From contig CAITND010000242.1 in the NCBI GenBank assembly GCA_903893625.1, positions 1-32,261 of the forward strand: 32,261 nucleotides of DNA, read 5' to 3'. Below, one piece after another: positions 9,324 to 32,261 of this stretch. This DNA is from an uncultured Oscillatoriales cyanobacterium (lineage in GTDB: Bacteria > Cyanobacteriota > Cyanobacteriia > Cyanobacteriales > Microcoleaceae). Under the pieces are notes generated by a model, which saw only the letters and a list, made by a program, of their open reading frames with translations, ran no database searches and was not told where the DNA came from. Numbering within the stretch: the stretch's first letter is position 1; each line of letters begins with the position of its first letter. Both the position numbers and the translations under genes were made by a program.

Positions 9324-9899
9324 ATGATACAAACTGAAGATAAACCCCAAATTCAATCTCTCTCCCTAGAGGAGTTTTTAACCCAACCGGAAACCAAACC
9401 CGCCCAAGAATATATTAACGGAGTTGTTCATCAAAAACCGATGCCAAAAGGAAAACATAGTCTTATCCAAGGTCGTCTGAGTGAAACTATTAATCAAATT
9501 GGTGTATCGGCTAAAATTGCTTACAGTTTTCCTGAATTACGCTGTACTTTTGGCGGACGTTCAATTGTTCCTGATATTGTTGTTTTTGAATGGCAGAATA
9601 TCCCTTTAGATGAACAAGGAGAAATTGCCAATGATGTTACTATTGCCCCAGATTGGACAATTGAAATATTATCTCCCGACCAAAATACAACCCGTGTGAT
9701 TAATAATATTTTATTTTGTTTAAAACATCAAACCCAACTCGGTTGGTTAATAGACCCTCAAGAACGATTAGTATTAGTTTTTAAACCCAAACAAGAACCA
9801 GAAATATTTGAAGGAGAACAAATTTTACCCGTTTTAACTATATTAACAGATTATCAATTATCCGTCAATCAATTATTCAGTTGGTTAACCTTAAATTGA
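9324..9899 (+). CDS. Uma2 family protein (DUF820), partner of the NLR-like gene
   Basis: This 191-residue protein is a full-length Uma2 member with a PD-(D/E)XK nuclease-like fold. It shows the opening EEFLTQPETKPAQEYINGVV, then KGKHSLIQGRL, SFPELRCTFGGRSIVPDIVV with the conserved PD, and APDWTIEILSPDQNTTRV with the Glu, followed by LGWLIDP and LVVFKP-type strands. The catalytic pattern looks intact. The ATG comes 4 bases after the NLR-like stop with no separate promoter, so the two are almost certainly co-transcribed and may be translationally coupled. Its last 9 bases overlap the end of the convergent SbcC-like gene. A role as effector of the NLR-like protein is speculative. Confidence 0.87.
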   Translation: MIQTEDKPQIQSLSLEEFLTQPETKPAQEYINGVVHQKPMPKGKHSLIQGRLSETINQIGVSAKIAYSFPELRCTFGGRSIVPDIVVFEWQNIPLDEQGEIANDVTIAPDWTIEILSPDQNTTRVINNILFCLKHQTQLGWLIDPQERLVLVFKPKQEPEIFEGEQILPVLTILTDYQLSVNQLFSWLTLN

Positions 9900-15753: not shown

Positions 15754-15835
15754 GATGTTGTTTCTTAATAAAAAATTACGCTACTTATTTTTTGGAGTTA
15801 TGACATAATTGAAGCAAACTCATAGAGAGGTCATT

Positions 15836-16882
15836 ATGCCCCCATCTGATACCGTTATAGCATCCCAGAATGCTCTCGATCATATAGTTGAACCAGCTAG
15901 ACAAAGGAAACGTTGGGATAAGTATGCTCCAGCATGGTTGGACGAAGCTATTGTCTCAAGGGGAGTTTTACATAAGTTTTGGACTCAAAAGCGAATTCGA
16001 CAAGAAAATTTTGAGAATATCTGTAAGGCTGTTGGGATTGACTGGAAACAAGTCGTAGAAATCGATCCAATACAATTAGCGTCCAGTTCGAGTAATAATT
16101 CCTGGGTGGGTCGCAAGGAACTGATTGATGAGTTAGGAACTAAGCTTCGGGGAGACTGTCGAGTATTAATACTCACGGGCATTACAGGTATTGGCAAATC
16201 CGCTTTAGCTGCACGCTTAACAACGGAATTTCAGGAAACCTGGACTAAGGTAAGCCTGGAATTTGACTCCAAGACCATAATTGATTTTGCTAGTGTAGCA
16301 GCTGATTTACTCTGGAGATGGAATGAATCTATTACATCTGATGACCGTAGAGATCCTTTGCTGTTGCTGAATCGGTTGCTCAGAAAACTACAAGAAGAAT
16401 GTTATATACTCATCCTAAATTCTGTTGAAAACCTGCTCCAAGGAGATGCAGAAAAAGGCTGGAGTGAATTTCAGGATAAGTGGTGGGAAAATTTCTTTAA
16501 CAGGCTATTAGAAGATTCTTGCCAAAGTAAGATAATTATCACATCGCAAGATTTGCCCAGGTATTTTGACGAAATCTGCTTCAATAACCCAGAACTTTGT
16601 CATTACCGCTCACTCAATGGATTTACTAAAGAGGAACAACTGGAGTTTTTTGATATTTTAGGATTAGATGTTGATGATGAATCAGGCAGCAAATCAGCAT
16701 TAGAAAAAATTGGAGAACTATTTGAGGGTCATCCTTTAGGCTTAAGGGTGATTGCGGGTGAAATTATAGACGATCCGATTTTTAATGGGGATGCTGCTAA
16801 ATACTGGCAAAAATACGGTGAAAAGATGTTAAAAATTAAGGAGGGGTACAATATAGAAGCCATGCGAATTAGTTATTGCTAA
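15836..16882 (+). CDS. Truncated STAND NTPase with HTH-like N-terminus
   Basis: The start is the ATG at 15836, with AGAGG 5 bases upstream; a TTG nine codons earlier is less likely. The product is 348 residues. Residues about 10-75 match the helical, HTH-like module found before NACHT/NB-ARC domains in cyanobacteria (ARQRKRWDKYAPAWL, FENICKAVGIDWKQVVE). The NTPase follows: WVGRKEL at 90-96, Walker A GITGIGKS at 115-122, a Walker B-like ILILNSVEN at 191-199 and GHPLGLRVIAGEI near 298. The Walker B Asp is Asn here. The frame stops after the helical linker (YWQKYGEK), so the winged-helix part and sensor repeats are missing. The TPR gene begins 19 bases on in another frame. The pair is probably one gene broken by rearrangement. 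Confidence 0.75.
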   Translation: MPPSDTVIASQNALDHIVEPARQRKRWDKYAPAWLDEAIVSRGVLHKFWTQKRIRQENFENICKAVGIDWKQVVEIDPIQLASSSSNNSWVGRKELIDELGTKLRGDCRVLILTGITGIGKSALAARLTTEFQETWTKVSLEFDSKTIIDFASVAADLLWRWNESITSDDRRDPLLLLNRLLRKLQEECYILILNSVENLLQGDAEKGWSEFQDKWWENFFNRLLEDSCQSKIIITSQDLPRYFDEICFNNPELCHYRSLNGFTKEEQLEFFDILGLDVDDESGSKSALEKIGELFEGHPLGLRVIAGEIIDDPIFNGDAAKYWQKYGEKMLKIKEGYNIEAMRISYC

Positions 16883-17140
16883 GGTAGAGAATAAGTTAGC
16901 CGTGAAAACTTCTACTGAAATCAACCATTGGGAACTAGCTCAATGGATTGCTATTAAAACTTGGCTGACTAAATACAAACCGAAGCCAAATGCTAGTAAT
17001 TTAAGTCAAGTGAAAGGCTATTTACAAGCTTTTCAACATCTGTGTGAATTGGAAGAGTGGGAAACTGCTTATAAAATTCTTTTGATCAAGATTAATTCCC
17101 CTACAAAAGAAGAATTATACAGCCAACTCGATACTTGGGG
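16864..17140 (+). repeat. Direct duplication, copy 1 (junction of STAND and TPR frames)
   Basis: From GCGAATTAG at 16864 the sequence matches 18469 onward with only a handful of differences for over 200 bases, then diverges. The spacing is 1605 bases, exactly 535 codons. The match stops abruptly at 16864, where the upstream sequence belongs to the STAND gene, which marks this as a recombination breakpoint. Confidence 0.9.
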
Positions 17141-20100
17141 CTACCCTCAAGAATTAATTGATTTATATGACAGAATTTTAGGAAAATTAAGTCCTGAATT
17201 AGATGTATTTTTTTTACGAGGTCTTGGAAGATGTTACTATCTCCTATCTAAATACCATCAAGCTATTGAATATTACCAAAAAAGTCTGGATCTAGCTAGA
17301 GAATTGGAAAACCGAGCTAATGAGGCAAAAGCCCTAAGAGGGTTGGGAGCTACTTACAATAGCTTAGGAAATTACAATGAAGCTATTTTATATTTAGAAG
17401 ATAGTTTTAAGATTGCACAGGAGATAGATAATCGCCATCTTGAAGGAAGTTGTTTAGGAGTTTTTGGGCTTGTTTACCAAAATTTGGGGAACTATGCTAA
17501 AGCTATTGAATATCAACAGCAATGTTTGAGAATTGCACGAGAAGTAGACGACCATTTCATGGAAAGTTGTACGCTAAATCGTCTGGGAAACATCTTTTAT
17601 TTAAGAGGAAACCATCGTGAAGGATTGTCCTATTTTCAGCAATCTTTGACTATTGTACAGAAAATAGGCGATCGCTCTTTGGAAGGTTATGTGCTATTTA
17701 GTTTTGGTGCTACCTATTCGTCTTTAGGAGATTATCATCAAGCCATTTCATATTTTAACCAAGTTTTAGTGATTGCAGCAGAAATAGGTGATCTCGATCT
17801 CAAAGGTAGAGGAATGGGGGGTCTGGGTCATGCTTATCGTTTTCTAGGAAACTATAAACAAGCTATTGATTACCATCAAAAAAATTTAGATATAGTCCGT
17901 TTAACTGGTAATCGTTTTGGAGAAATAACCGCTCTTCTCAGTTTAGGTATTGTTTTTAATGAATTAAAAGATGATCACCAAGCTATTAATCTGCTGGGGG
18001 AAGGCTTGGCAATTGCACAGAAATTAGGCACTCGTGTTAACGAAGGTAACGCACTCCAAAATTTAGGTAGTGTTTACTTGTCTCTCAAAGATTATCACCA
18101 AGCAATTTCATATTTTAATCAAAGTTTAGGAATTGCTAAAGAGGTTGGTGATCAAGAACTTGAAGCTATCAATCTGATTTGTTTAGGTAATGCCTATTTT
18201 GAGTGTGAGAACTATTCACAAGCAACAGAGTATTACCAGAAGTGTTTAAATATTGCTAAAACTATCGGAGATATAAAAACAGAAGAACTGGCATTAAAAA
18301 ATTTAGAAAAACTAGCTTTAGTTCAAAAAAACTCTACCAACTTTACTCTATCTTTAGACAATAATTCAGACCAAACAAGGTTTAACAATATGACTGATTC
18401 CCCAGATTTCGACGTAAAAATAGAACTTCAACTAGAAGGAGTTGACCTGACTGCTCCTGGCGAATTAGTGATTGCTAAGGTAGAGAATAAGTTAGCCGTG
18501 AAAACTTCTACTGAAATCAACCATTGGGAACTAGCTCAATGGATTGCTGTTAAAACTTGGCTGACTAAATACAAACCGAAGCCAAATGCTAGTAATTTAG
18601 ACCAAGTGAAGGGTTATTTACAAGCTTTTCAACATCTATGTGAATTGGAAGAGTGGGAAGCTGCTTATAAAATTCTTTTTATTAAAATTAATTCTCCAAC
18701 CAAAGAAGAGTTATATGAACAGCTAACGACTTGGGCTTTATATCAGGAATCCTTTGAACTGTACAACCGAATTTTAGACAGGTTAAGTCCCAAAGAAAAT
18801 GCCATTATTTTAAAGCTTTTAGGCAATTCGCACTTTTATTTAGGTAATTACGACCAAGCAAAGGATTACTTCGAGAAGAGTTTAGCAATTGTACAAACAC
18901 CTGCAAACCAAGACCGCCATCAAGAGGCACGACTTCTAGCTAATCTGGGAACTATTTATATAAAGCAAAGAGTTTATGACAAGGCTCTAGAGTACCAGCA
19001 CCAAAGTTTAGCAGTAGCGCGAGAAATCAAGGATTCTCACTGGGAGGCATACGCTCTATCCTTTCTAGGTATAATTGAGACGGATTTTGGTAACTACAAT
19101 CAAGCAATTAATTACTATCAGCAGAGCCTAGATATTTTTCAACAATTAGAAGATTCAATAGGAGAAGTAGGAGAATTATGTCATGTGGGCTTGGCTTATC
19201 TTGAACTAGGAGACTATAACAATGCAATTAACTATTTGCAGCAAGCTTTGGACATGGGCAACAAAATGCAATACCGTGTAGTTCAAGGTGTCGCTTTAAT
19301 GAAATTAGGAAGGGCTTATTTTAGACTAAGAGAACAGGAAAAAGCTATTGAATACTTAGAGGAAAGTTTAGTAATCCTAGAAGAAATAGGAGACTGTGCA
19401 AATCTTATAGAAGGTGTTAGAGAACTAGGTGAAATCTACTTTAGTTTAGGTAAATATGCTGAGGCAAAAGACTTCTATCAGAAAGGTTTAACAATTGCAA
19501 TTACCATTAAATCGCTTTTAGATCAGGCGTGGCTTTGTGTATGTTTAGGAGCTACCTATAATGCTTTGGGTGATTATAAAAAAGGGTTTGAATACTTACA
19601 GCCAGTTCTTAACATTGTACCAGAATTAAATACAACACAATTAAATAAATGTTGGTTAGAATGTAGGACAAAAAGTAATTTAGCAACTTCTTACTATGGT
19701 TTAGGTGACTTTACTAAAGCAATTGATTATTATCAAGAAACTTTAGTGATCGCCAAAGAAATTAAAGACTTCCCCTCGCTGTATTCATGTTTAACTAATA
19801 TAGGCAGCATTTACACTATAAATCTTGGCGAACCTAATAAATCTTTTGAATATTACGAACAAGGAATAATAATAGCGAAAGAAGTTAAAGATCACCATCA
19901 AGAATTTACATTTTTAGGATATTTAGGTAATGCCTACTATGCTTTCAAAGACTTTAAAAAATCCGTTTTTTACTATCAAGAAAGCCTGAAATTAGCCAAA
20001 GAAATACCTGATTCTCGCTTGGAAGAGATGGCTTTAGCTAGTCTAGGCAATTTTTACTATTCTTTAAATAATTTCACTGAAGCGATTGATTATTATCAGC

Positions 20101-22853
20101 AGTATTTGTTAATTGTTCAAAGCCTTGAAGACTATGTAAATGAAGCAATAACTCTAGCAAATTTAGGAAAAGCTTATAGTTCCTTGAAAGACTATACCAA
20201 AGCCATAGATTACCATTGCCAAAGTCTTGCTATTGCTAAAAGAATTAATAATCGTACATTAATAGCTGATTTTACAAGCAATTTGGGCAATGCTTACCTG
20301 GATATAAAAGACTATGATTTATCGATTCAATATTATGAAGAGTTTCTTGCAATTCAATCAGAACTTGCTAATTTAAGAGGTCAGACTAATGCTTTGTTAT
20401 TCTTGGTATATGTCTACACTATTTTAGAACAATTTCAAAAAGTAACTTATTATCTCGAACTATTACAAGAGATTCTTAAAACGACAAGCGACCAACAAGC
20501 AAAAGCTTTTGCAATACAAGCTATAAATAAAATTTTGCCAACCATAGGTGAGATTTACTTAGATAACCATAAATATCAACAAGCAATTACAATTCATAGA
20601 AAAATGTTAGCAATTTCTCAAGATGTTAGCGATACTGCTATGGAAAGTTTAGCTGTTGCTTGGCTAGGATGCGATTTTCGTGAAATGGGTCAACTGCAAA
20701 CAGCCATAGAGTGGTTGAAAAAGCGACTGACCTTAGCTGAAACTCTCAATGACTGTAACGCTCAATGTGAAACTTTAAATTGGCTTGGTAATACTTATAG
20801 GAATCTAGCTGAACAGGAACAAGCTATCCAATACTACGAAGAGGCGATTACAAATTATGACAAAGCTATTGCACTGAATCCTGATAACCCTGATTACTGG
20901 AGTAACCGAGGGCTTATATTACAAGATTTAGGCTATTACCAAGAGGCAATCGAGTCTTATCAGCAAAGTGCTCATGCTCACAGTGCGGAGAAGGCTTATT
21001 ATCAAGTGGTTAAATGTCATGAACGAAGTTTAGCGATCGCACGAGAGATTAATGATGAATTATGGATCGGAAAGATTCTTTATAATTTAGCCGATACGTT
21101 GTTACAACCAACATATTATGCTAAAAAACGGGAGTATTCATTAAAAGCTTTAGAGCATTTGCAGGAAGCTGTAGAAATTTTTAGAAAGCTTTTTGATCAC
21201 CTAAATGAAGCTAAGGCTCTTAAGAATTTAGCAGACCTTTCTTATAAATTAGGCTTTCGTGATCTTGCTGAACAGTTTTGTGATCAGGCTTTATCAATAG
21301 CTACCCAATTAAATATTATCTCAATACAAGAGGATTGCCGGAAACTCAAAAAACAATGGCTACTACAACAAATTTATGCAGAAGTTAAAAAAGCTAAGAA
21401 ACTAGCAAATAAATCAGAAGCCAATCAAACTTTACAAAAAGCTTATCGACTTTGTTGGGAAGCAGAACTATACAGTGAGTTAATAGTAGTTCGTATTCAA
21501 ATAAAAAATATATCAGAACAATATTTTAATGAAGAAAAATACTTAGCAGCATTCCAGTTGTCTGAAAGCCATCTTTGTTTACTTAATGAATTAGCAGCCA
21601 ATACCAACTGTGAGCAAAAAATAATTAATCTACAAGAAGATTTTTATTGGGGTTGGTACAGTAAAGGAAATGCTTTACGTCAATTAGAACGTTATGAGGA
21701 AGCACTGGTTAGCTTTGACAAAGCAATTAAAATAAAATCTGACGATGCAGATTGCTGGAAGGATAGAGGATTTACTCTGTTGAATTTAGCCCTTTACGAA
21801 GAGGCGCTTGCCAGCTATGACAAATCGTTAGAAATAGCACCAGAATATTTTCTAGTCTGGGCGTTAAAAGGTTCGTTACTGGATAGGTTAGGTCGCCATG
21901 AAGAAGCAATTATCAGTTATGATAAAGCTTTAGAATTTAACCCTGATTTTGATTTAACTTGGCATTATCGAGGCAATGTGTTGCTGAAGTTAAATCGTTA
22001 TGAAGAGGCAGTTACAAGCTATGATCAAGCATTAAAATTGAGTCCCGATCTTCCTGATGCTTGGAATGATCGAGGTAATGCTCTCGATAATTTAGATCGT
22101 CTTGAAGAAGCGATCGCCAGCTATGATAAAGCGATTGAACTAAAACCAGATCAACCTGATTATTGGAATAATAAAGGTAATACCTTGAATAACTTACGTC
22201 GTTATAAAGAAGCTATCGTTTGTTACGACAAAGTAATTGAACTTAAGCCAGATGCTTATTGGGGATGGTACAATCGGGGTAATTCACTGCGAAATTTAAG
22301 CCGTTACGAAGAGGCTATCCCTTACTTGAACAGAGCTATTGAACTCAAATCGGATCTACCTTCTTATTTGAATGTACGGGGATTATCTTTACAGGGATTA
22401 GGACGTTATCAAGAAGCAATTGCTGACTACGATCAAGCTATTACTTTAGATTCTACATACCGTTGGGCTTGGTGTAACCGAGGGAATTCTTTACGGTTCC
22501 TAAATCGATATGAAGAATCAATTATCAGTTACAATAAAGCGATTGAACTCAAACCCGATGAACCTGATTATTGGAGTAAAAGAGGCATTTCCCTAAGCTG
22601 TTTAGGACACTATCAAGATGCAATTGATAGTTGTACTAAAGCTATTGAAATTAAAATAGATTATGCTATTGCTTGGTATAATAGAGCTTGCTATTGTGCC
22701 TTACAAGAAAATATTGAACAAGTAATTGAAGATTTAAAACAGGCGATTGATTTCAATCCTAAGTATCGAGAAATGGCAAAAACTGACTCTGATTTTGATA
22801 AAATTAGAGAGCATACTTCTTTTCACAGCTTAATTTATCAATCTAACGAATAA
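16902..22853 (+). CDS. Giant tetratricopeptide-repeat protein, 1983 aa
   Basis: The protein is almost wholly TPR. Residues 1-60 form a helical module (KTSTEINHWELAQWI...), followed by about 40-residue repeats of the TPR_12 type (LGNAYxxLxDYxQAIxYYxQSLxIA). Near 488-530 a linker and a second copy of the N-terminal module appear, then more 40-residue repeats to about 1310. From about 1580 to 1950 the repeats become classical 34-residue TPRs (NRGNxLxNLxRYEEAIxSYDKAIELKPD). There is no signal peptide or catalytic domain; the role is a protein-binding scaffold or sensor. The first codon is GTG without a good ribosome site, and the frame opens only 45 bases earlier, so the true N-terminus is uncertain. 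The ATG at 18390, with AAGG upstream, may be the original start of a shorter gene. Confidence 0.78.
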   Translation: MKTSTEINHWELAQWIAIKTWLTKYKPKPNASNLSQVKGYLQAFQHLCELEEWETAYKILLIKINSPTKEELYSQLDTWGYPQELIDLYDRILGKLSPELDVFFLRGLGRCYYLLSKYHQAIEYYQKSLDLARELENRANEAKALRGLGATYNSLGNYNEAILYLEDSFKIAQEIDNRHLEGSCLGVFGLVYQNLGNYAKAIEYQQQCLRIAREVDDHFMESCTLNRLGNIFYLRGNHREGLSYFQQSLTIVQKIGDRSLEGYVLFSFGATYSSLGDYHQAISYFNQVLVIAAEIGDLDLKGRGMGGLGHAYRFLGNYKQAIDYHQKNLDIVRLTGNRFGEITALLSLGIVFNELKDDHQAINLLGEGLAIAQKLGTRVNEGNALQNLGSVYLSLKDYHQAISYFNQSLGIAKEVGDQELEAINLICLGNAYFECENYSQATEYYQKCLNIAKTIGDIKTEELALKNLEKLALVQKNSTNFTLSLDNNSDQTRFNNMTDSPDFDVKIELQLEGVDLTAPGELVIAKVENKLAVKTSTEINHWELAQWIAVKTWLTKYKPKPNASNLDQVKGYLQAFQHLCELEEWEAAYKILFIKINSPTKEELYEQLTTWALYQESFELYNRILDRLSPKENAIILKLLGNSHFYLGNYDQAKDYFEKSLAIVQTPANQDRHQEARLLANLGTIYIKQRVYDKALEYQHQSLAVAREIKDSHWEAYALSFLGIIETDFGNYNQAINYYQQSLDIFQQLEDSIGEVGELCHVGLAYLELGDYNNAINYLQQALDMGNKMQYRVVQGVALMKLGRAYFRLREQEKAIEYLEESLVILEEIGDCANLIEGVRELGEIYFSLGKYAEAKDFYQKGLTIAITIKSLLDQAWLCVCLGATYNALGDYKKGFEYLQPVLNIVPELNTTQLNKCWLECRTKSNLATSYYGLGDFTKAIDYYQETLVIAKEIKDFPSLYSCLTNIGSIYTINLGEPNKSFEYYEQGIIIAKEVKDHHQEFTFLGYLGNAYYAFKDFKKSVFYYQESLKLAKEIPDSRLEEMALASLGNFYYSLNNFTEAIDYYQQYLLIVQSLEDYVNEAITLANLGKAYSSLKDYTKAIDYHCQSLAIAKRINNRTLIADFTSNLGNAYLDIKDYDLSIQYYEEFLAIQSELANLRGQTNALLFLVYVYTILEQFQKVTYYLELLQEILKTTSDQQAKAFAIQAINKILPTIGEIYLDNHKYQQAITIHRKMLAISQDVSDTAMESLAVAWLGCDFREMGQLQTAIEWLKKRLTLAETLNDCNAQCETLNWLGNTYRNLAEQEQAIQYYEEAITNYDKAIALNPDNPDYWSNRGLILQDLGYYQEAIESYQQSAHAHSAEKAYYQVVKCHERSLAIAREINDELWIGKILYNLADTLLQPTYYAKKREYSLKALEHLQEAVEIFRKLFDHLNEAKALKNLADLSYKLGFRDLAEQFCDQALSIATQLNIISIQEDCRKLKKQWLLQQIYAEVKKAKKLANKSEANQTLQKAYRLCWEAELYSELIVVRIQIKNISEQYFNEEKYLAAFQLSESHLCLLNELAANTNCEQKIINLQEDFYWGWYSKGNALRQLERYEEALVSFDKAIKIKSDDADCWKDRGFTLLNLALYEEALASYDKSLEIAPEYFLVWALKGSLLDRLGRHEEAIISYDKALEFNPDFDLTWHYRGNVLLKLNRYEEAVTSYDQALKLSPDLPDAWNDRGNALDNLDRLEEAIASYDKAIELKPDQPDYWNNKGNTLNNLRRYKEAIVCYDKVIELKPDAYWGWYNRGNSLRNLSRYEEAIPYLNRAIELKSDLPSYLNVRGLSLQGLGRYQEAIADYDQAITLDSTYRWAWCNRGNSLRFLNRYEESIISYNKAIELKPDEPDYWSKRGISLSCLGHYQDAIDSCTKAIEIKIDYAIAWYNRACYCALQENIEQVIEDLKQAIDFNPKYREMAKTDSDFDKIREHTSFHSLIYQSNE
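18469..18745 (+). repeat. Direct duplication, copy 2 (inside the giant TPR gene)
   Basis: This is the partner of the copy at 16864-17140. Here it follows coding sequence for a segment beginning MTDSPDFDVKIEL (18390), so this copy probably keeps the ancestral upstream context. Both copies encode the KTSTEINHWELAQWI module in the same frame. Confidence 0.9.
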
Positions 22854-22874: not shown

Positions 22875-24008
22875 TCAGCTTGATTGATTCCGAATATTTT
22901 GAGCCATTAAATACATTGTTGCCCATTCCTGTTGAATTTGGGTGATTTTGAGGTTTAAAGCTTGAGCAATGGTTTCTAGGGTTTCTCCAGCTTTTAAACG
23001 TTCAATAATTTGCTGTTGGGTCGGGGTTAAACTTTGCCAAAATTTTTGCCATTGGTCAGAGGTTAATCCTAAACGATGTTCCGATAGAGAAGTTCCTAAC
23101 CAACTGGTGACTAATTCTGGGTTCTGTTTCAAGGTAAAATTTTTAATCGCATGATAACCGACTTTTTCTCGCAGTCGATAGATTTGTTTAATCGGTAAAT
23201 TTAACGTTTGAGCGATCGCTTCTTGGGATAATCCTTGTAAATACAATCGTAACCATTCCGCCGCAATCGGGTCAACATTTTTAATTAAATAGGCTTCAAA
23301 TTCCGCTTGAACAGTTAACCGTTGATTTTGTTGAGTTTGAAAATATTGTTCATCTTCATAGCGAGAAACCGCTTGATGATCTAATAAACTAATGGTTTCA
23401 TCTGTCTGATCAGATAGGATTTCATCGGATAACTGTTTAATCCATTCTCCGGTGGGAACTTGGGTTAATCCTCCCCGTTGAGTGCGGCGTAAATAGTTAA
23501 CAAATCGATAGACTAATAGGGGTTGATTACGGATGGGGCGCAAACAATATTCTTCTACGGTTGTTAATAATAACGAATTTCTTAATTGTTGATTAGAGGT
23601 ACATTGAGAAATCCATTGCATTTGTTGTTGTAAATAGCGATCGCTATTCAACATTTCTTGTACGACTTCTTGTAAAACATCTACCACTTGACGTTGACGA
23701 TCTCGACTGGTAGCGACCCACAGCCGAACTTTTTGGCGCAAAATCACTAAACTCCCTAATCGTTGCATTAAATTGCGATAGGCTGTTTCGGGAGTAACAT
23801 CTAAATAGCGCTGTTGTAGAATGCGATAGCGAAAGTTTAACCCTTGTTTGATCCGTTCCTGTTGGTCAAGGGGGAGATCATCTAAAGATTCAGAATGTTC
23901 TCCCAGTAACCAACGAATTAGGCTTTCTCGTGTGTTTGGGTTATGGTTGGGGTAGTCGTTTTCCAGTTGAAAACGCCACTGATTTGTCCAAGATTCTGAT
24001 AACGTCAT
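22875..24008 (-). CDS. HetZ-related protein 2 (HTH regulator-like)
   Basis: The 377-residue protein matches what I recall as the cyanobacterial family named HetZ-related protein 2. The characteristic blocks are TRESLIRWLLGEH, LNFRYRILQQRYL, TAYRNLMQRLGSLVILRQ, EEYCLRPIRNQPLLVYRFV and LRRTQRGGLTQVP. Two helix-turn-helix-like segments are visible: LQGLSQEAIAQTLNLPIKQI at about residues 258-277, similar to sigma-factor region 4, and LTPTQQQIIERLKAGETLET near 328, LuxR-like. HetZ controls heterocyst differentiation in Anabaena, but this relative is also found in non-heterocystous strains and its role is not established. It converges with the TPR gene and lies 51 bases after the adenylate cyclase on the same strand. 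Confidence 0.75.
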   Translation of the reverse strand: MTLSESWTNQWRFQLENDYPNHNPNTRESLIRWLLGEHSESLDDLPLDQQERIKQGLNFRYRILQQRYLDVTPETAYRNLMQRLGSLVILRQKVRLWVATSRDRQRQVVDVLQEVVQEMLNSDRYLQQQMQWISQCTSNQQLRNSLLLTTVEEYCLRPIRNQPLLVYRFVNYLRRTQRGGLTQVPTGEWIKQLSDEILSDQTDETISLLDHQAVSRYEDEQYFQTQQNQRLTVQAEFEAYLIKNVDPIAAEWLRLYLQGLSQEAIAQTLNLPIKQIYRLREKVGYHAIKNFTLKQNPELVTSWLGTSLSEHRLGLTSDQWQKFWQSLTPTQQQIIERLKAGETLETIAQALNLKITQIQQEWATMYLMAQNIRNQSS

Positions 24009-24059: not shown

Positions 24060-26246
24060 TTATCCTAAATCGGGTAAGCTCCCTTCTATTTTATTAACTT
24101 CAACTGGAGAGTTGTCGTTCAGTTTATTATGGATAATTTCAACTAAATGCTGAGTTCCACCGTTTATTTGTTGCTCATTCAGGGAAATCATTTGGTTAAC
24201 CACGGAAAAATAATCGTCCACTTTTCGACCCAATAAAAAATAAGTATTCATGCCGCCTTTTCCTTTAATTAAAATTTTCCCTCGTTTAGCGACAATATAT
24301 TGATCGGGTAAAAGATAATAAGTATCTTCACTCATTTGAATCCGTCCTGCTAACCCATGAGATTCCATTCGACTCGCAATATTGACCGTATCTCCCCACA
24401 AATCATAGAGGAATTTTTTAATCCCAATCACTCCAGCCACAACGGGCCCACTGTGAATTCCAATTCGCAGACTAAGGGCTTTATGATGAATTTGATTAAA
24501 CTCAATAATGGCATTTTGCATATCTAATGCCATTTCTGCGATCGCAATGGCATGATCAGAACGATGATAAGGTAATCCCCCCACCACCATATAAGCATCC
24601 CCAATGGTTTTAATTTTTTCTAACTCATATTTTTCAGTTAACCGATCAAAAGCTGAGAATAATTCATTGAGTAAATTGACTAAATCAATCGGACTTAAGG
24701 AAGATGAAATTTGCGTAAATCCAACAATATCAGCAAATAAAACGGTGACTTCAGCAAAATGTTCTGCTATCGTTTTAGTTTCTTTTTTGAGACGATTGGC
24801 AATGGGTTCGGGTAGAATATTTAACAGTAACCGTTCTGTTTGTTGCTGTTGATGGTGGAGAGCAATTTCAGTCAGTTGTCGTTTAATAAACTGACCTAAC
24901 TGACTACCAATTGCTGTCATGGTTTGCATGAGTTCAAGATCAGGAGAACAGATTTCTTGACTTAAAAAACTCATCACTCCTAACACTTCTTTTCCATCTT
25001 TAATCGGAAACCCAAAAGCGGCGTGTAATCCTAATTTTTGGGCAACATATTTTTGAATACAGTGTTCATTCACCATGACATCATCAATCCAATGAGCAAA
25101 ACCACTACTCCAGACTTGACCAAGTAAACCAACATTAAAACCCAGCTTGATTTGTTGATAAAAATCTTGAATTTCAGGGAGATTCAACGCCGGGTTTACC
25201 CACAGTTCAATACACCGAAGTTTTGGATCAATAGAATTGATTTCACCCGCAGAATTTTGAGAGGGTTCACCCCCTAAAAGCAAGGGTTCTTCTAAAAAAT
25301 TTTCTAGCATCCAAGCTTCTCCCAAAACCCATCCCAAACTTTCACAAGTTGAGCGTAAAATTTGCAGGAGACCTTCATGAATATTCGGGGCTTCAGACAG
25401 AATTCGAGAAATTTGATATTGAGTTAACATCCGTTGTTGAGCGCGTTTTCGTGCCGTAACATCCCGACCTACATAAATGAAATCTAGGGCATCATCCGTA
25501 TCTGTTGTTAGCGTTGAAATCGAAAATTCTAGGATCACTTTATTCCCCTGTTTCTTTTTACAACTTAATTCCAGATTTTTAAATAAAAAGTCCTCTTTTT
25601 TGAGGTAAGATTCTGTTAAATATTCTTGCAAAAAACTATCATCTTCCACAAAATAGGAGATAGGTTTATTGATTAAATCATCTTGGCTATATCCTAACAA
25701 AGATAAGGTGGCAAGATTAACTTTTTTAATGATTCCCTGTTGATTAGTAACAATTAAAATATCCTCCATTGAGGTAATAATTCGATCAATATACTGTTGA
25801 GAATGAGAATAAGCATTTAAGAGTAAACGGGACTCATTTGTTTCTTGAACTAAAGCTTGTTCTAATTCCATCCGTTGCGTCACATCTTCAAAAAGCAAGA
25901 TTAATTCGGGAACAGGCTCTGCTTGCCTCGAAATTCCCAGGAAGTAAATATTAAAATAAGTCAAGGTAGCTTCATCGATTTGCCGACTCATGGAATTTAA
26001 CTCAAAATAATCGTGATCTCCCTGAATGATGGCATCAATAATTTCTTCTGTCCCAATCAATTCAGGAAAATAATCTTGGATATCTTCTCCAACTTTTAAG
26101 CCTTCTGAACCTTCGCTAAAGCGAATAACACCTTCAGAGAATTCTTGAATTCTCAAGTGAGGATTAATAACGATATAATCCATGTTACGAACTCTTAAAA
26201 AATGCTTAAACAAATTATTCATAATCCCCGAATAAATAATAGACAT
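24060..26246 (-). CDS. PAS-GAF class III adenylate cyclase
   Basis: The 728-residue protein contains an N-terminal PAS-like domain (about 18-135), a second PAS (about 160-270), a GAF (about 285-455) and a class III cyclase domain (about 490-690), with no membrane segment. Metal-binding aspartates are in FADIVGFT and IGDAYM. The purine-selecting Lys and Asp sit in EKIKTIGD and YDLWGDTVN, with Arg in NIASRME, so ATP rather than GTP is the expected substrate and cAMP the product. It lies 67 bases after the diguanylate cyclase and shares its N-terminal architecture. A second ATG at 26220-26222 aligns better with the start of that paralog and is a real alternative. Confidence 0.9.
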   Translation of the reverse strand: MSIIYSGIMNNLFKHFLRVRNMDYIVINPHLRIQEFSEGVIRFSEGSEGLKVGEDIQDYFPELIGTEEIIDAIIQGDHDYFELNSMSRQIDEATLTYFNIYFLGISRQAEPVPELILLFEDVTQRMELEQALVQETNESRLLLNAYSHSQQYIDRIITSMEDILIVTNQQGIIKKVNLATLSLLGYSQDDLINKPISYFVEDDSFLQEYLTESYLKKEDFLFKNLELSCKKKQGNKVILEFSISTLTTDTDDALDFIYVGRDVTARKRAQQRMLTQYQISRILSEAPNIHEGLLQILRSTCESLGWVLGEAWMLENFLEEPLLLGGEPSQNSAGEINSIDPKLRCIELWVNPALNLPEIQDFYQQIKLGFNVGLLGQVWSSGFAHWIDDVMVNEHCIQKYVAQKLGLHAAFGFPIKDGKEVLGVMSFLSQEICSPDLELMQTMTAIGSQLGQFIKRQLTEIALHHQQQQTERLLLNILPEPIANRLKKETKTIAEHFAEVTVLFADIVGFTQISSSLSPIDLVNLLNELFSAFDRLTEKYELEKIKTIGDAYMVVGGLPYHRSDHAIAIAEMALDMQNAIIEFNQIHHKALSLRIGIHSGPVVAGVIGIKKFLYDLWGDTVNIASRMESHGLAGRIQMSEDTYYLLPDQYIVAKRGKILIKGKGGMNTYFLLGRKVDDYFSVVNQMISLNEQQINGGTQHLVEIIHNKLNDNSPVEVNKIEGSLPDLG

Positions 26247-26313
26247 CCAGATTTTTTATTTTATGGCTAGAAAAACTTTGTTGATGGGTAGATGTAATCA
26301 AAATAAGAAACTA

Positions 26314-28185
26314 TTAGGGAGATGCAATCACAAGGCAATTTCGCCCGTTTTTCTTAGCTTGGTACAAAGCTTGATCTGCACTATGAACGAGGGTTTGAGG
26401 AGTGAGATGTTCACAGGGAATCAGACTCGCTACTCCAATACTAATTGTTACATATTGATTCACCTCTGAGTTGAGATGGGGAATCTGCAAAGCTTCAACT
26501 TGTTGACAAATTTTTTCCGCCAGGTGAACACTGCTACTGATATTGGTATTGGGTAAAATTATGGCAAATTCCTCTCCTCCATAACGAGCGACTAAATTCG
26601 TAGTCCGTTGAATGACATTCTGTAAAACTTGAGCCACTTGCTGTAAGCAAAAATCCCCTGCTAAATGCCCATAGGTATCATTGTATTGTTTAAAATAATC
26701 AATATCTAGTAAAAACAGTGATAGTGCTGTTCCTTCCCGTCTGGAACGATTCCATTCTTGATAAAGTACCCGATCAAAATGACGACGGTTTGATAGACCT
26801 GTCAACCCATCCTCAATCGCTAACTGCTTTAATTCTTGATTGACTATTTGCAACTGCTCATAAAGTTCAGCCTGTTGCAGAGCAATACCAATCTGTATCG
26901 CTAATTCTTCTAATAAGTTCACTTCCCAGATTTCCCATTGTCGGGGTTGTTCACATTGATGTGCCATTAATAATCCCCAAAGTTGATTGTCGGAATTTAG
27001 CTCTTGAGAAGAATCATAAATCAGAATCGGTACGACTAAACTCGCTTTAACTTTTAATTGCAGTAAAGGACGAAGATAGTAGAGGTCTATTGGCATTAAA
27101 TAAAGATCATTGATCGCATCAATTTTTCCAGATTGAAAATGCGATAATAATAGGGCATTAAAATTCTGGGTGAAGATTAGTTGATTCAGTGTAGCAATGG
27201 CATCATGGGTGACAGATTCAGCAATTACTTGTCCTTCTTCTGAGGAGTAAAATCGATAAATTAAAACCCGATCTACTTTTAAAAAATTCCGCACTTCAAT
27301 TACAATTGTCTGGAGGGTTTCTTGTAAACTTAAAGACTGGTGAATCCGTTGTGTAATTGTTTTTAAGACGCGATCGCGTTCCGCTTGTTGACGAAACTGA
27401 AGTTCTGCCCGTTTCTGTTCACTCATATCCCGACCAATCCAAACAAATTCCTGGGCATCATTCGGATCAAAATTCAGAGATGCACAGGAAAAAGAGACGG
27501 GAAAACAGGTTTCAGTTTTAGTCTTACAGATCATTTCTACGGGTATAACCAGATCAGAAGAAGATAAGAATTCAGAAATTTGCATCCCATTTTTAAATTT
27601 ATTATCTTCAAAAATAATTAAAATAGATTGTTGTAGTAATTCTTCCTTTGAATAATTTAATAAAACCGTTGTGGATTGATTTACAATTTTTATAATGCCT
27701 GTATTATCCGTGACAATTAACATATCTGTCATGGAATTAATAATTTTATCTAAATAAATTTTTGTTTTTTCTAAAGCACTTAAAGCTAATCCATATTCTT
27801 TAGCAACTTGAGTGATTTTTTGTTCCTTTACCAGTAATTCTGTGGTATCTTCAAATAAAATTAATAATTCTTGATTATGGGGAAAATCTTCAGGATTTCT
27901 TAAAACATAAATATCAAAATAAATACTTTTTTCACTGCTAATCGTTCTGGAAATTCCTTTCAGTTCAAATTGATTAACTTGATTATATATAATTTTCCTA
28001 AAGGTTTCTTCTAATCCAATCAACTCAGGAAAAACGATAAATACATCTGATCCTGATTGCACTTGCTCTGGGGAATCTGAAAATCTAGCCACTCCCCAAG
28101 AAATCTCTACAATGACAAACTCAGAATTAATTGTCAAATATTCAATTTGTTTTGGTGCCAAGATTTTTTTTAAAAGCGTATTCAT
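26314..28185 (-). CDS. PAS-PAS-GAF-GGDEF diguanylate cyclase
   Basis: The 623-residue soluble protein has a PAS-like domain (about 1-120), a second PAS (about 135-260), a GAF of the phytochrome/cyanobacteriochrome type (about 285-455) and a GGDEF domain (about 465-620). The active site RYGGEEFAIILP near residue 535 is intact, so c-di-GMP synthesis from two GTP is expected. The inhibitory RxxD site is RTTN, so product inhibition is probably weak. The GAF keeps the FQSGKIDAINDLY and SLVVPILI strands but has no Cys where bilin-binding GAFs carry CH, so it probably binds no bilin. Its N-terminus resembles that of the adjacent adenylate cyclase. It follows the GTPase gene by 39 bases. Confidence 0.9.
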   Translation of the reverse strand: MNTLLKKILAPKQIEYLTINSEFVIVEISWGVARFSDSPEQVQSGSDVFIVFPELIGLEETFRKIIYNQVNQFELKGISRTISSEKSIYFDIYVLRNPEDFPHNQELLILFEDTTELLVKEQKITQVAKEYGLALSALEKTKIYLDKIINSMTDMLIVTDNTGIIKIVNQSTTVLLNYSKEELLQQSILIIFEDNKFKNGMQISEFLSSSDLVIPVEMICKTKTETCFPVSFSCASLNFDPNDAQEFVWIGRDMSEQKRAELQFRQQAERDRVLKTITQRIHQSLSLQETLQTIVIEVRNFLKVDRVLIYRFYSSEEGQVIAESVTHDAIATLNQLIFTQNFNALLLSHFQSGKIDAINDLYLMPIDLYYLRPLLQLKVKASLVVPILIYDSSQELNSDNQLWGLLMAHQCEQPRQWEIWEVNLLEELAIQIGIALQQAELYEQLQIVNQELKQLAIEDGLTGLSNRRHFDRVLYQEWNRSRREGTALSLFLLDIDYFKQYNDTYGHLAGDFCLQQVAQVLQNVIQRTTNLVARYGGEEFAIILPNTNISSSVHLAEKICQQVEALQIPHLNSEVNQYVTISIGVASLIPCEHLTPQTLVHSADQALYQAKKNGRNCLVIASP

Positions 28186-28224
28186 AGCCTATTCCAGAAC
28201 AAATGCACAACCTAATCTGATACT

Positions 28225-28752
28225 TCAAGATGAGATAAACTGCTGAGATAATTCATAGAAAATCGTATCTACATGATCCCCTGTTTTCGCCGAAGTTTGA
28301 TAACTGGATAAAATTTGCTGACGCTGCTTAAAATTAGGAGCGAGTTTGATCATACGTTCAAGTTCAGTTGAGTCAACTAAATCAATTTTATTAAACGCGA
28401 TTACGATGAATCCTTTGGGATTGACGGAGAAAAATAAATCAATGTGTTCAGGAAGTCGTTCTACCGTTTCCTGACGGGTCACATCTGCAACAATCACCAC
28501 ACCACTCGCTCCTTGTAAATAACTAGGCGTGATCGCTTTAAATTTAGTATGGCCTTCAATATCCCAAATTAACAATTGTACAGATCCCGTTTTTTCTGAA
28601 GCAAATTCCGCTAGGTCAACGATTTTACGAGAAATTTTTACCCCAACAGTAGATAAATATTGATCGCTAAACTGACGATCCACAAACCTGCGAATCAAAC
28701 TGGTTTTTCCAACTCCAAAATCACCAACTAAGCAAATTTTTTTAGAAATCAT
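28225..28752 (-). CDS. Ras/Rab-like small GTPase
   Basis: The 175-residue protein is a single-domain small GTPase. G1 is GDFGVGKTS (10-18), the switch I threonine is probably in YLSTVGVK (32-39), G3 is WDIEGH (63-68), G4 NKID (121-124) and G5 TSAKTG (153-158). It has no lipidation cysteine. Position 68, where Ras and Rab proteins carry the catalytic Gln, is His, so intrinsic hydrolysis is likely slow and dependent on a partner. The ATG overlaps the upstream stop codon as ATGA, implying tight coupling to the Roadblock-OmpA protein. In bacteria Roadblock proteins such as MglB regulate the GTPase MglA; the same pairing is inferred here. Cytoplasmic. Confidence 0.9.
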   Translation of the reverse strand: MISKKICLVGDFGVGKTSLIRRFVDRQFSDQYLSTVGVKISRKIVDLAEFASEKTGSVQLLIWDIEGHTKFKAITPSYLQGASGVVIVADVTRQETVERLPEHIDLFFSVNPKGFIVIAFNKIDLVDSTELERMIKLAPNFKQRQQILSSYQTSAKTGDHVDTIFYELSQQFISS

Positions 28753-31175
28753 GGTTTTAACGGTTTATTCTCTTTAGATTGTAAAGGTATTATCTCAAAC
28801 AAAACGGTTTGACTCAACCAAGGTTCTTGATTCTCATCAACTCCCCCAGGACGTTCTGTTTTTCCTACCGTTTCTATCCGTCGCCGATCAATTCCCAAAT
28901 CCTCTAAAATATTTTGAATCGTTTGAGCGCGTTCTAAGGCTAACTGAGGATGTTTTCGGGTTTTTTCCTGTTGATGACTATAACCAATAATGCGTAATTT
29001 TAGATCAGGATATTGCTTCAAATATTGAGCCAGAGGCTGAAGTTTACCGCGTAAATCTTTTAATACTAATTCAGCCGAATTTACATTAAAATAAATCCGA
29101 GTCGCAATCGGAAGCGGTTGTACCGTTAAATTAGCAACGACAGAATCTACCCCTTCTATTTTTTTAAAAGCTTGGGTAATTTTCCCAATATCTTCAGATT
29201 TTATCACTTTTCCTTTTAAAGTAACTTGAGGCGATTGATACTGCGCCGAAATTAAAATCCCACTAATTTGATTCAGTAGGGTCGCCATTCGTTGCACTTC
29301 TTCGGCTGTTTGCATCGGATCAGGAGGAATTTTAACCGCAATAATTTGATTATCAATTTGAAAATCAGGAGCCGTTGTTTGAGCGATCGCTTTCGCTTTT
29401 TCTTTTAATCTAGTGCTAGGAACTTTCCCTTCTAATTCTAATATTTTTCCTTGGGCTTTAACCTGTAATGGATAAATTGCTAACTCTGGTTCTGACGCTA
29501 ATATTTTGCTTAATTTCACTTCTAATTGACGCAAATTCATCTGTCGGTATTGATAAATTACCCAAGGAATTAGAATCAAACTTAATACCACCGAACCCAC
29601 AATTAAAAGACTCGTTGGCTTTTGACCAATTTTTCTATCACTTCCAACGCGCATCAAGGCTTCAAGTTGACTAGGAATTCCTTGGGGAACTGAATCTGGA
29701 TCACCATTAAACTCCTCAATGGGACGACTATATTTTAAAATCAAAGTTACCATCGTTTGGCGAATTTTTTTAATAAATGCCTTCCGAGGTTCTCCTTTGA
29801 CCACAATCGCCAAATAACAATATCCCGCAACTTCTATGATAATTTTACAATCTCCATATTCAATTTCATTCAGTTCAGAAACTTCTCCCGTTTGGACAAT
29901 ACAATCATTGACAAAACTGCGAATTGCTGTTAGCATTCCGGCTACCATTTCGGCTTCCATTTGCGCTTGATCCGGTTGTTTCATTTCTGCAATAATTAAA
30001 CCCGAACCTTTATGAATTAAAAACACCGCTTGCACCACAAAATCACTCACTTCTTGTAAAATGAGTTCTGCTTCCGACACCCCTTGAACTTTCGATTTAA
30101 TTTTGCGTTGAATTCCTTGAACACTCAAAGCACTATTGACTTTTTGATTAATTTCTTGAATCGCTTCTGCTAAATAGCGACTAATCGTACTCCCAATCAC
30201 TGGATATAAGGCATCTACCATCGAATCTCGTTCTAAACTGACTTGTTCTTTAATCGTGCGTCCAATGGTAGGAGCTAAAGCGTCAGCAATTTCATTACGA
30301 TCAACTTTAATTTGTTCTCGAATAGCAGCCCCGATTTCTGGCCCAATTGCTTGCGCGATCTCTTTAGGAGAATTTTGAATTTGTTGTTTAATTGCTTCGG
30401 GAATTAAATCAGCAATTGCAGCACTCATCGCTTGTCGATCTGTTTGACTTTTCCGTAGAATTATCTCATCAATAATTGGAATAAATGCCTGAATTAACTC
30501 CTCTTTGGACTCATTTACTTTCAGGTTTAAAAGTTGACCAATAGTAGGAAGTAACAGTTCAATTAATTGTTGAGGTTCATAAATTTGGAATTCAATCTGA
30601 TTCAGTTGTTGATTAATTTGAGCTACCAGATCTCGAACTTCTGGCAATTCAGAATCTAAGAGATGGGTTTTGAAGTTTTCTAAATCATCACTTAGGTTGG
30701 CTCCAAACATTAACTCTTGTAATTTTTCTAACGGATCATTATGATTTGAAGCCGACTTTAAAGAACTTTTTACTGACGATTTAGTTGATAAATTGGAAGA
30801 TTTTAATATAGGTTTTGGTACAGGATTTTGAGGGGGCGATTTTTCTAAATTAACAGGATTTAATCTTGAGTTAATATCCGTTTGATCAAGGGTTTGACTG
30901 GTATTAATTTCTTCAAGAGTATGGGGAGAAACAGAAACATCCTCAGAAGGTTCAAAACTCGATTCGGATTCAATAGGATTAGGTGTAACAGGATGGAGGG
31001 GTTGTTCCTGTTCTAAGCAAGGATCGGGATCAGGCTGATTAAAGGCGTTTAAATCCATTAATAAATTAACCAACAATTCTAGGGGATCACTCTCAACATC
31101 ATCTGATGAATTTTGTTGAGATGTTATCCCCTGTTGTTGATCGCTGTGACTTAAATCATCCTGAGAAAAGGTCAT
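28749..31175 (-). CDS. Roadblock/LC7-like, BON and OmpA-domain membrane protein
   Basis: The 808-residue protein has no signal peptide. Residues 1-150 are acidic and disordered. Residues about 190-365 hold repeats of an ALAPTIGRTIKEQVSLERD type. Residues about 365-480 resemble a Roadblock/LC7 domain (VVQAVFLIHKGSGLIIAEM, GDCKIIIEVAGYCYLAIVVK). One membrane helix lies at about 520-541, then two BON-like modules (545-690) and an OmpA-like C-terminus (690-808; FNVNSAELVLKDL, LALERAQTIQNIL). The Roadblock part should be cytoplasmic and the OmpA part periplasmic, touching peptidoglycan. The OmpA loop reads GYSH instead of GHTD, so wall binding may be altered. It is 12 bases after the coiled-coil gene and overlaps the GTPase. 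Confidence 0.85.
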   Translation of the reverse strand: MTFSQDDLSHSDQQQGITSQQNSSDDVESDPLELLVNLLMDLNAFNQPDPDPCLEQEQPLHPVTPNPIESESSFEPSEDVSVSPHTLEEINTSQTLDQTDINSRLNPVNLEKSPPQNPVPKPILKSSNLSTKSSVKSSLKSASNHNDPLEKLQELMFGANLSDDLENFKTHLLDSELPEVRDLVAQINQQLNQIEFQIYEPQQLIELLLPTIGQLLNLKVNESKEELIQAFIPIIDEIILRKSQTDRQAMSAAIADLIPEAIKQQIQNSPKEIAQAIGPEIGAAIREQIKVDRNEIADALAPTIGRTIKEQVSLERDSMVDALYPVIGSTISRYLAEAIQEINQKVNSALSVQGIQRKIKSKVQGVSEAELILQEVSDFVVQAVFLIHKGSGLIIAEMKQPDQAQMEAEMVAGMLTAIRSFVNDCIVQTGEVSELNEIEYGDCKIIIEVAGYCYLAIVVKGEPRKAFIKKIRQTMVTLILKYSRPIEEFNGDPDSVPQGIPSQLEALMRVGSDRKIGQKPTSLLIVGSVVLSLILIPWVIYQYRQMNLRQLEVKLSKILASEPELAIYPLQVKAQGKILELEGKVPSTRLKEKAKAIAQTTAPDFQIDNQIIAVKIPPDPMQTAEEVQRMATLLNQISGILISAQYQSPQVTLKGKVIKSEDIGKITQAFKKIEGVDSVVANLTVQPLPIATRIYFNVNSAELVLKDLRGKLQPLAQYLKQYPDLKLRIIGYSHQQEKTRKHPQLALERAQTIQNILEDLGIDRRRIETVGKTERPGGVDENQEPWLSQTVLFEIIPLQSKENKPLKP

Positions 31176-31187
31176 ATTTTGACCGAA

Positions 31188-31787
31188 TTATAGATGGTGT
31201 TCAGGGAGAACAAAACCTCCGTTTTTTTCTTCGACTGCTTGCTTAATTACAGGTACGAATTCAGTCCCTTTTAATCTCATCCCGACTTCAAATAGAACTT
31301 CAGCCATATCATCCCGTGAGACTTTGACTTCTGTTAATAAAGAAAAGCGACGATCAAGTTCTTCTAAAACTTGATTTTTGAGATTGCGAACTTCTTCTTG
31401 TAATTGATCACGAGTTTGTCCTAATTCTTCTCGCAGGGAAGTTGTTTGCTGATCCAAAGCTTCATCTAAGGCTTCAATACTACTGGAAAATTTGCGATTC
31501 AGTCGATCCCCTTGTTGCCGTAAATCCGTTAATTCTTCCTGGGAATTTAAAGTCAGAGTTTTAATTCTCTTGTCTAAATTTTCAACAGAAGATTTAATTT
31601 CTGCGGTTAAAATTGTTTTTAGTTGTTCAACTCGATCTTGAATATCTTGCTGGAGCAATGCGAGATCGGACTCAATCTTTTCAAACCGACCATTATAGTC
31701 TCGGAGTTGTGACCCAAAGATAATATCACGAATTTGGTCGATATTACCTAAGCGCTCTCGCATTTCTTCTTTAGTGATTTCAGCCAT
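31188..31787 (-). CDS. Coiled-coil protein heading the GTPase operon
   Basis: The 199-residue acidic protein is mostly one long coiled coil (about 30-160; repeated heptads such as EALDEALDQQTTSLREELGQ). It is capped by a conserved-looking N-terminus (MRERLGNIDQIRDIIFGSQL) and a short C-terminal domain (VSRDDMAEVLFEVGMRLKG). It has no membrane segment. AAGGA lies 7 bases before the ATG. It is the first gene of the minus-strand signalling cluster and ends 12 bases before the Roadblock-OmpA start, so it is probably an assembly or scaffold partner. I recognise it only as a conserved cyanobacterial coiled-coil protein; its function is unknown. Confidence 0.8.
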   Translation of the reverse strand: MAEITKEEMRERLGNIDQIRDIIFGSQLRDYNGRFEKIESDLALLQQDIQDRVEQLKTILTAEIKSSVENLDKRIKTLTLNSQEELTDLRQQGDRLNRKFSSSIEALDEALDQQTTSLREELGQTRDQLQEEVRNLKNQVLEELDRRFSLLTEVKVSRDDMAEVLFEVGMRLKGTEFVPVIKQAVEEKNGGFVLPEHHL

Positions 31788-32122: not shown

Positions 32123-32261
32123 AATTACAAATTACGAATTACGAATTACGAATTACGAATTACGAATTACGAATTACGAATTACGAATTACGAATTACGA
32201 ATTACGAATTACGAATTACGAATTACGAATTACGAATTACGAATTACGAATTACGAATTAC
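32123..32261. repeat. AATTACG heptamer array, over 18 copies, runs off the window
   Basis: After one variant unit (AATTACA, 32123-32129), 18 perfect copies of AATTACG and a 6-base partial copy fill 32130-32261 without one mismatch. The array continues beyond the window. Every frame is short and repetitive; it is not coding. Confidence 0.97.

Follow-up and report, generated by a model that had tools for sequence, protein, structure and literature searches.

A Rup-type GTPase cluster with a predicted Roadblock envelope protein and two EFN-headed cyclases in an uncultured Oscillatoriales cyanobacterium

The gene cluster

A 32,261-nucleotide stretch of DNA from an uncultured Oscillatoriales cyanobacterium (contig CAITND010000242.1; the whole stretch is called the window here) carries five minus-strand open reading frames (ORFs) encoding a coiled-coil protein, an envelope protein with a predicted Roadblock domain, a Ras-like GTPase, a diguanylate cyclase and an adenylate cyclase, a cluster that we assign to the Rup Group 1 GTPase systems. 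An earlier note on this DNA had described the five genes with gaps of 12, -4, 39 and 67 bases, and ORF prediction confirmed their positions, these gaps (counted from the coiled-coil gene to the adenylate cyclase gene) and products of 199, 808, 175, 623 and 728 amino acids (aa); Pfam backs the calls of Ras (98 bits), BON, OmpA, GGDEF and class III cyclase (Guanylate_cyc), and adds PAS and GAF. Both cyclases begin with a shared domain that is referred to as EFN.

31188..31787, minus strand: coiled-coil protein, 199 aa (ORF; relatives in other cyanobacterial genomes)
28749..31175, minus strand: Roadblock-transmembrane-BON-OmpA envelope protein, 808 aa (ORF, Pfam, hydropathy, predicted structure)
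30141..30560, minus strand: 23-residue repeat region at residues 206-345 of the OmpA protein (self-similarity peaks at a period of 23)
29724..30074, minus strand: Roadblock/longin-fold domain, about residues 368-484 (predicted structure)
29556..29612, minus strand: predicted transmembrane segment at residues 522-540 (19 residues with a mean hydropathy of 2.55)
29118..29531, minus strand: BON region, about residues 549-686 (Pfam BON in two stretches, the best at 549-612; far limit approximate)
28851..29093, minus strand: OmpA domain, residues 695-775 (Pfam; His at the family Asp and Asn positions)
28225..28752, minus strand: Ras-like GTPase of Rup Group 1 type, 175 aa, G3 motif WDIEGH (Pfam Ras and alignment)
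26314..28185, minus strand: EFN-PAS-GAF-GGDEF diguanylate cyclase, 623 aa, with GGEEF (ORF, Pfam, alignment)
27751..28185, minus strand: EFN domain (PAS fold and exit helix) of the diguanylate cyclase (sequence comparison and prediction)
24060..26246, minus strand: EFN-PAS-GAF-class III adenylate cyclase, 728 aa (ORF, Pfam, alignment)
25785..26246, minus strand: EFN domain of the adenylate cyclase (sequence comparison)
22875..24008, minus strand: HetZ-related protein 2 (582.8 bits to NF037965, whose cut-off is 400)

The gene for HetZ-related protein 2 lies 51 bases downstream of the adenylate cyclase gene and is probably the sixth gene of the unit; it is found at the same place only in L031, L068, L069 and the window, all four of which are Planktothrix-type loci, and a functional link between this HetZ-type regulator and the cyclases is possible. 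Between 22700 and 32261 neither promoter-like sites (32, against 30.0 in shuffles) nor terminator-like sites (6, against 6.4) were in excess, and therefore it is from spacing and conserved order that we infer co-transcription of the five, probably six, genes.

Conservation of the neighbourhood

GTPase relatives at an E value of 1e-10 were found in 33 of 291 cyanobacterial genomes. The loci compared here are the nearest 80 of 543 GTPase relatives together with the window (81 in all), which is not a random sample; a second set of 37 loci overlaps with it in genomes, and counts from the two are not summed. The closest of the 80 are from Planktothrix (88-89% identity), and a same-genus genome holds a relative at 96% identity; the host is thus probably Planktothrix or one of its near relatives. 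The Roadblock-OmpA gene adjoins the GTPase gene in 55 of the 66 loci with at least 4.5 kb of upstream DNA and is somewhere in the locus in 60, with the coiled-coil gene also beside it in 49, and a same-strand EFN effector follows within 6 kb in 65 of the 75 loci with at least 3 kb of downstream DNA. Grouped by genus or title, 22 of 37 groups include a locus with all four parts. The suggestion that GTPase and cyclases belong to one module therefore held when its neighbourhood was compared across cyanobacteria, both order and co-occurrence being conserved, whereas the exact gene set that had been pointed out is rarer: the pair of diguanylate and adenylate cyclase occurs in 4 of 75 loci, three of Planktothrix-type (the window counted) and that of filamentous cyanobacterium ESFC-1, and in 2 of 37 loci of the second set (L031 and L033).

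Across a single sample of 386 genomes the GTPase, the Roadblock domain and EFN were each detected in 44 and the coiled-coil protein in 46, and these components co-occur more than by chance. The GTPase is found together with Roadblock in 43 genomes (Fisher p 8e-55) and with EFN in 40 (Fisher p 4e-45), shared ancestry not being removed from either value, and comparison of genome lists places it with the coiled coil in 42. One same-genus genome (G255) is missing all four parts, so that the system would be dispensable or lost there.

EFN effectors are not confined to the cluster. In three genomes of the second set (G002, G066 and G207) EFN lies elsewhere in the genome despite there being none close to the cluster, and 29 EFN places outside it were retrieved; some of the genomes concerned lack the GTPase, and some places sit on separate contigs of fragmented assemblies and so may be at any distance from the cluster. 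Leaving out G135, in which EFN is partial, 39 genomes have the GTPase alongside a complete EFN ORF; the outputs are adenylate cyclase in 27, histidine kinase in 24, diguanylate cyclase in 10 and a SpoIIE-type phosphatase in 1, with at least two kinds of output in 18 genomes and adenylate cyclase, diguanylate cyclase and histidine kinase together in 5. Four genomes of the window's family (G195, G039, G334 and G099, at loci L173, L176, L179 and L186) encode a diguanylate cyclase with EFN outside the cluster as well as a Roadblock-domain protein of about 1200 aa, and in G195 these two are present with no GTPase detected.

The GTPase and the envelope protein

The GTPase motifs in the window are GDFGVGKTS, WDIEGH, NKID and TSAK, a Ras-like G1-G5 set without the G3 Gln, which is missing in 74 of 81 GTPase loci and kept in the other 7. 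The best 60 of 688 solved GTPase relatives are Rab/Ypt/Sec4-type by name, with a few that carry generic names only. No natural fusion joining the GTPase to Roadblock or EFN, which would have been a hint of contact, was seen, since GTPase matches from the 386 genomes had open frames of at most 228 aa, and on viral contigs 62 pattern matches included no relatives. An 821-aa protein at L136 matches the GTPase model weakly. Furthermore, a divergent second GTPase subfamily with the G3 motif WD[LI]YGE is found in L059 and L063-L066, accompanied by a coiled coil and by a Roadblock-domain protein that is shorter and gave no hit in searches for BON and OmpA, and with no EFN nearby.

The coiled-coil protein matched 18 Pfam families, mostly coiled-coil or helical models and every one below the cut-off; its ends are conserved, with RLGNIDQIRDIIFG-type N-terminal and SRDDMAE..LF..GMRLKG-type C-terminal motifs. 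In the OmpA protein Pro, Ser, Thr, Asn and Gln make up half of the first 140 residues. It had been suggested that this protein spans the membrane and has a Roadblock part built in. Residues 522-540 are its single strong hydrophobic segment and, with the Pfam OmpA domain, fit the first suggestion, and the second is supported by the predicted fold rather than by Pfam, in which Robl_LC7 (PF03259) had no match in the OmpA protein, the whole genome or 47 aligned relatives. The predicted model of the domain has a helix-strand-strand-helix-strand-strand-strand-helix fold, and its structural matches are MglB, EGO/Ragulator (including LAMTOR) and TRAPP/longin proteins, longin proteins scoring like Roadblock proteins against it. 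These are families known to partner small GTPases.

A conserved Asp, Asn and Arg presumably form the peptidoglycan-binding site of OmpA-like domains, and across 100 relatives these positions hold D in 72, N in 70 and R in 100. In the window the Arg is kept and His replaces both the Asp and the Asn, so that contact of this particular protein with the cell wall is uncertain and would seem doubtful.

The EFN domain and the two cyclases

Structure prediction places EFN among PAS folds, and the only two EFN matches in the window's genome are the two cyclases. Two Gln residues are near-invariant (62 of 66 and 63 of 66), both on the helix that follows the PAS core (residues 115-144), the usual site of signal-transmission coils. 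Behind the constant EFN head the output varies between adenylate cyclase, histidine kinase, diguanylate cyclase and PP2C, and 13 of 103 EFN ORFs in the 80 loci and the window have no recognised output. About 160 distinct EFN ORFs occur across the loci examined; a tree of 142 rows, which omits those without recognised output, hits of fewer than 100 positions and identical copies, requires 12 changes between the labels adenylate cyclase, diguanylate cyclase and histidine kinase against a shuffled mean of 54.6, with 28 of 139 branches starred. EFN effectors therefore seem to form old lineages, each specific to one output, between which some swapping took place.

Over 168 residues, GGEEF included, the GGDEF domain can be aligned with WspR, and by eye its allosteric RxxD site presumably reads RTTN. 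The cyclase domain of the 728-aa protein aligns to each half of AC8 and of AC9 through FADIVGF, EKIKTIGDAY and YDLWGDTVNIASR, motifs from which we take its specificity to be for adenine, and by its catalytic-domain motifs the protein is classed as a class III adenylate cyclase.

Comparison with known systems

The note had known of no described system with this exact gene set, whereas Rup Group 1 GTPases, taxonomically diverse and present in Cyanobacteria among others, were described in 2014 (Wuichet & Sogaard-Andersen 2014, PMC4316618). According to the main text of that paper their genes lie with those for a coiled-coil protein, for a second protein that combines a domain of unknown function with an inner-membrane helix and OmpA, and for an output module. 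This module has an invariant Gln in its N-terminal region and is typically a histidine kinase or a fusion of diguanylate cyclase and phosphodiesterase; at that date none of the Rup members had been characterised by experiment. By motifs and gene set the window cluster matches this description and we class it as a Rup Group 1 system: it shares the coiled-coil protein, the transmembrane/OmpA protein, the GTPase without G3 Gln and an output with an N-terminal Gln region, one near-invariant EFN Gln being probably the Gln of the published output-module logo. It differs from the main-text account in having two outputs, one of them an adenylate cyclase, in its BON domain, in the predicted Roadblock and PAS folds that can be given to two formerly unknown regions, in having several effectors per genome, some unlinked, and in that the G3 Gln is retained by 7 of 81 GTPases. 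The main text contains none of the strings "adenyl", "cAMP", "PAS" or "longin", supplements being outside this search. Among the matches listed in the open-licence literature this is the only paper treating the system, and no later paper on Rup Group 1 GTPases was among them. The partly unlinked EFN effector set with its multiple outputs would be our main addition to the 2014 picture.

The MglA/MglB module likewise pairs a small GTPase with a Roadblock-fold partner. However, the GTPase had been taken to be MglA-type, and this kinship is rejected since its G3 motif is DIEGH and that of MglA is TVPGQ (Group 1) or GTPGQ (Groups 2-5; PMC4316618); furthermore Roadblock is here inside a transmembrane-OmpA protein and is missed by the Robl_LC7 model, and a link to polarity would be conjecture. 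Actinobacterial conservons (CvnA-D) also encode a membrane signalling protein, a Roadblock protein and a small GTPase together, an analogy to Rup Group 1 that the 2014 authors drew themselves, but there, according to the main text, the GTPase belongs to MglA Group 2 and a histidine kinase is the membrane protein (PMC4316618).

The likeness to yeast Ras-adenylyl cyclase and to Ragulator/EGO is one of working only, with EGO and LAMTOR among the Roadblock fold matches; the window system is bacterial and envelope-anchored. In yeast a Ras-type switch acts upstream of adenylyl cyclase.

Interpretation

We propose, with a probability of about 0.6, that an envelope-anchored Roadblock platform controls a Rup GTPase which acts on EFN-headed enzymes, with two messengers as output. 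The OmpA protein would sit in the inner membrane with BON and OmpA in the periplasm and the Roadblock/longin-fold domain on the cytoplasmic side, and together with the coiled-coil protein would form a platform that, in response to some stimulus, decides which nucleotide the GTPase carries, Roadblock serving as GTPase-activating protein (GAP), guanine nucleotide exchange factor or scaffold. The GTPase would in turn act on effectors that share the dedicated N-terminal EFN domain, here a diguanylate cyclase and an adenylate cyclase, so that one envelope-linked switch could tune c-di-GMP and cAMP jointly. We infer these contacts, this topology and this direction of signalling because gene order is conserved in the 81 loci and GTPase, Roadblock and EFN co-occur in the 386 genomes, because the genome's only EFN matches are the two cluster cyclases and the head stays as outputs vary, and because the Roadblock model matches GTPase-partner families and the gene set fits the 2014 description.

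Several observations weigh against this proposal. All ties of the GTPase to the EFN and Roadblock proteins are genomic, and EFN, as a PAS fold, could sense a ligand rather than bind the GTPase. EFN is undetected in 4 of the 44 GTPase genomes and the GTPase in 4 EFN genomes; 10 of 75 loci have no close downstream EFN, and all four parts are in place in only 36 of the 55 loci whose flanks reach 4.5 kb or more upstream and 6 kb or more downstream. For Roadblock, hhalign of its profile against true Roadblock sequences was not significant (E 0.3), a PDB profile search with the region gave no match and confidence in the model is moderate (pLDDT 74.8); as the sequence searches all failed, it is the predicted fold that argues for this domain.

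Wuichet and Sogaard-Andersen speculated that a Gln acting in trans completes the active site of the GTPase (PMC4316618), and EFN might be such a GAP, in which case the cyclases would switch the GTPase off and not be driven by it. The two near-invariant EFN Gln and the absence of the G3 Gln from most of the GTPases are in keeping with this. However, both Gln sit on the post-PAS helix, and both are kept where a G3 Gln and EFN share a locus, in 14 of 14 distinct EFN ORFs from 10 distinct loci (L041 and L107 are one contig, and four further G3-Gln loci hold no EFN), which weakens the proposal without refuting it and leaves it doubtful. It would also seem unlikely, if somewhat less implausible on its face, that the cyclases are ordinary PAS/GAF sensors sharing an operon for co-expression only, with EFN sensing a small ligand and never meeting the GTPase, since EFN is present in 40 of the 44 GTPase genomes and in several of these lies solely elsewhere than at the cluster, an arrangement for which a shared operon does not account. 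An MglA/MglB-type switch for polarity and gliding of filaments, which the note had hypothesised alongside surface sensing, could draw on MglB being among the fold matches, and on 63 of 68 order-assigned loci being in certain orders that are mainly filamentous in habit; with 5 of the 68 in Pleurocapsales or Chroococcales, a G3 of DIEGH and solved relatives of the Rab/Ypt/Sec4 kind, we regard it as very improbable, though no search for motility genes was made.

The proposal of a Roadblock-Rup switch acting on EFN-headed enzymes can be taken further, although only tentatively. The switch may be a hub at which cAMP, c-di-GMP and phosphorelay are set in parallel by the same GTPase, with effectors recruited genome-wide by a PAS-fold docking domain, as a bacterial counterpart of Ras-adenylyl cyclase.

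Other features of the window

On the plus strand an EAD4-NB-ARC-TPR (STAND-type) protein is encoded at 6554-9319, its TPR part (8431-9129) having a 126-base tandem repeat with 93% matching, and is followed by a putative Uma2-type endonuclease (9324-9899). At 15809-22853, also on the plus strand, an NB-ARC ORF is followed after 19 bases by a repeat ORF of 1983 aa that starts with GTG and is TPR-like by eye, and the two are perhaps one split STAND-type gene. Finally, about 20 copies of the 7-base tandem repeat AATTACG lie upstream of the cluster at 32123-32261 and run off the window end.

Significance

With a Roadblock platform and a dedicated PAS-fold effector head put forward by name, the Rup Group 1 cluster becomes a directly testable pathway of two domains, one GTPase and two measurable messengers. 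If the proposal is true, the synthesis of both cAMP and c-di-GMP would stand directly under a Ras-like GTPase, an unusual wiring for a bacterium.
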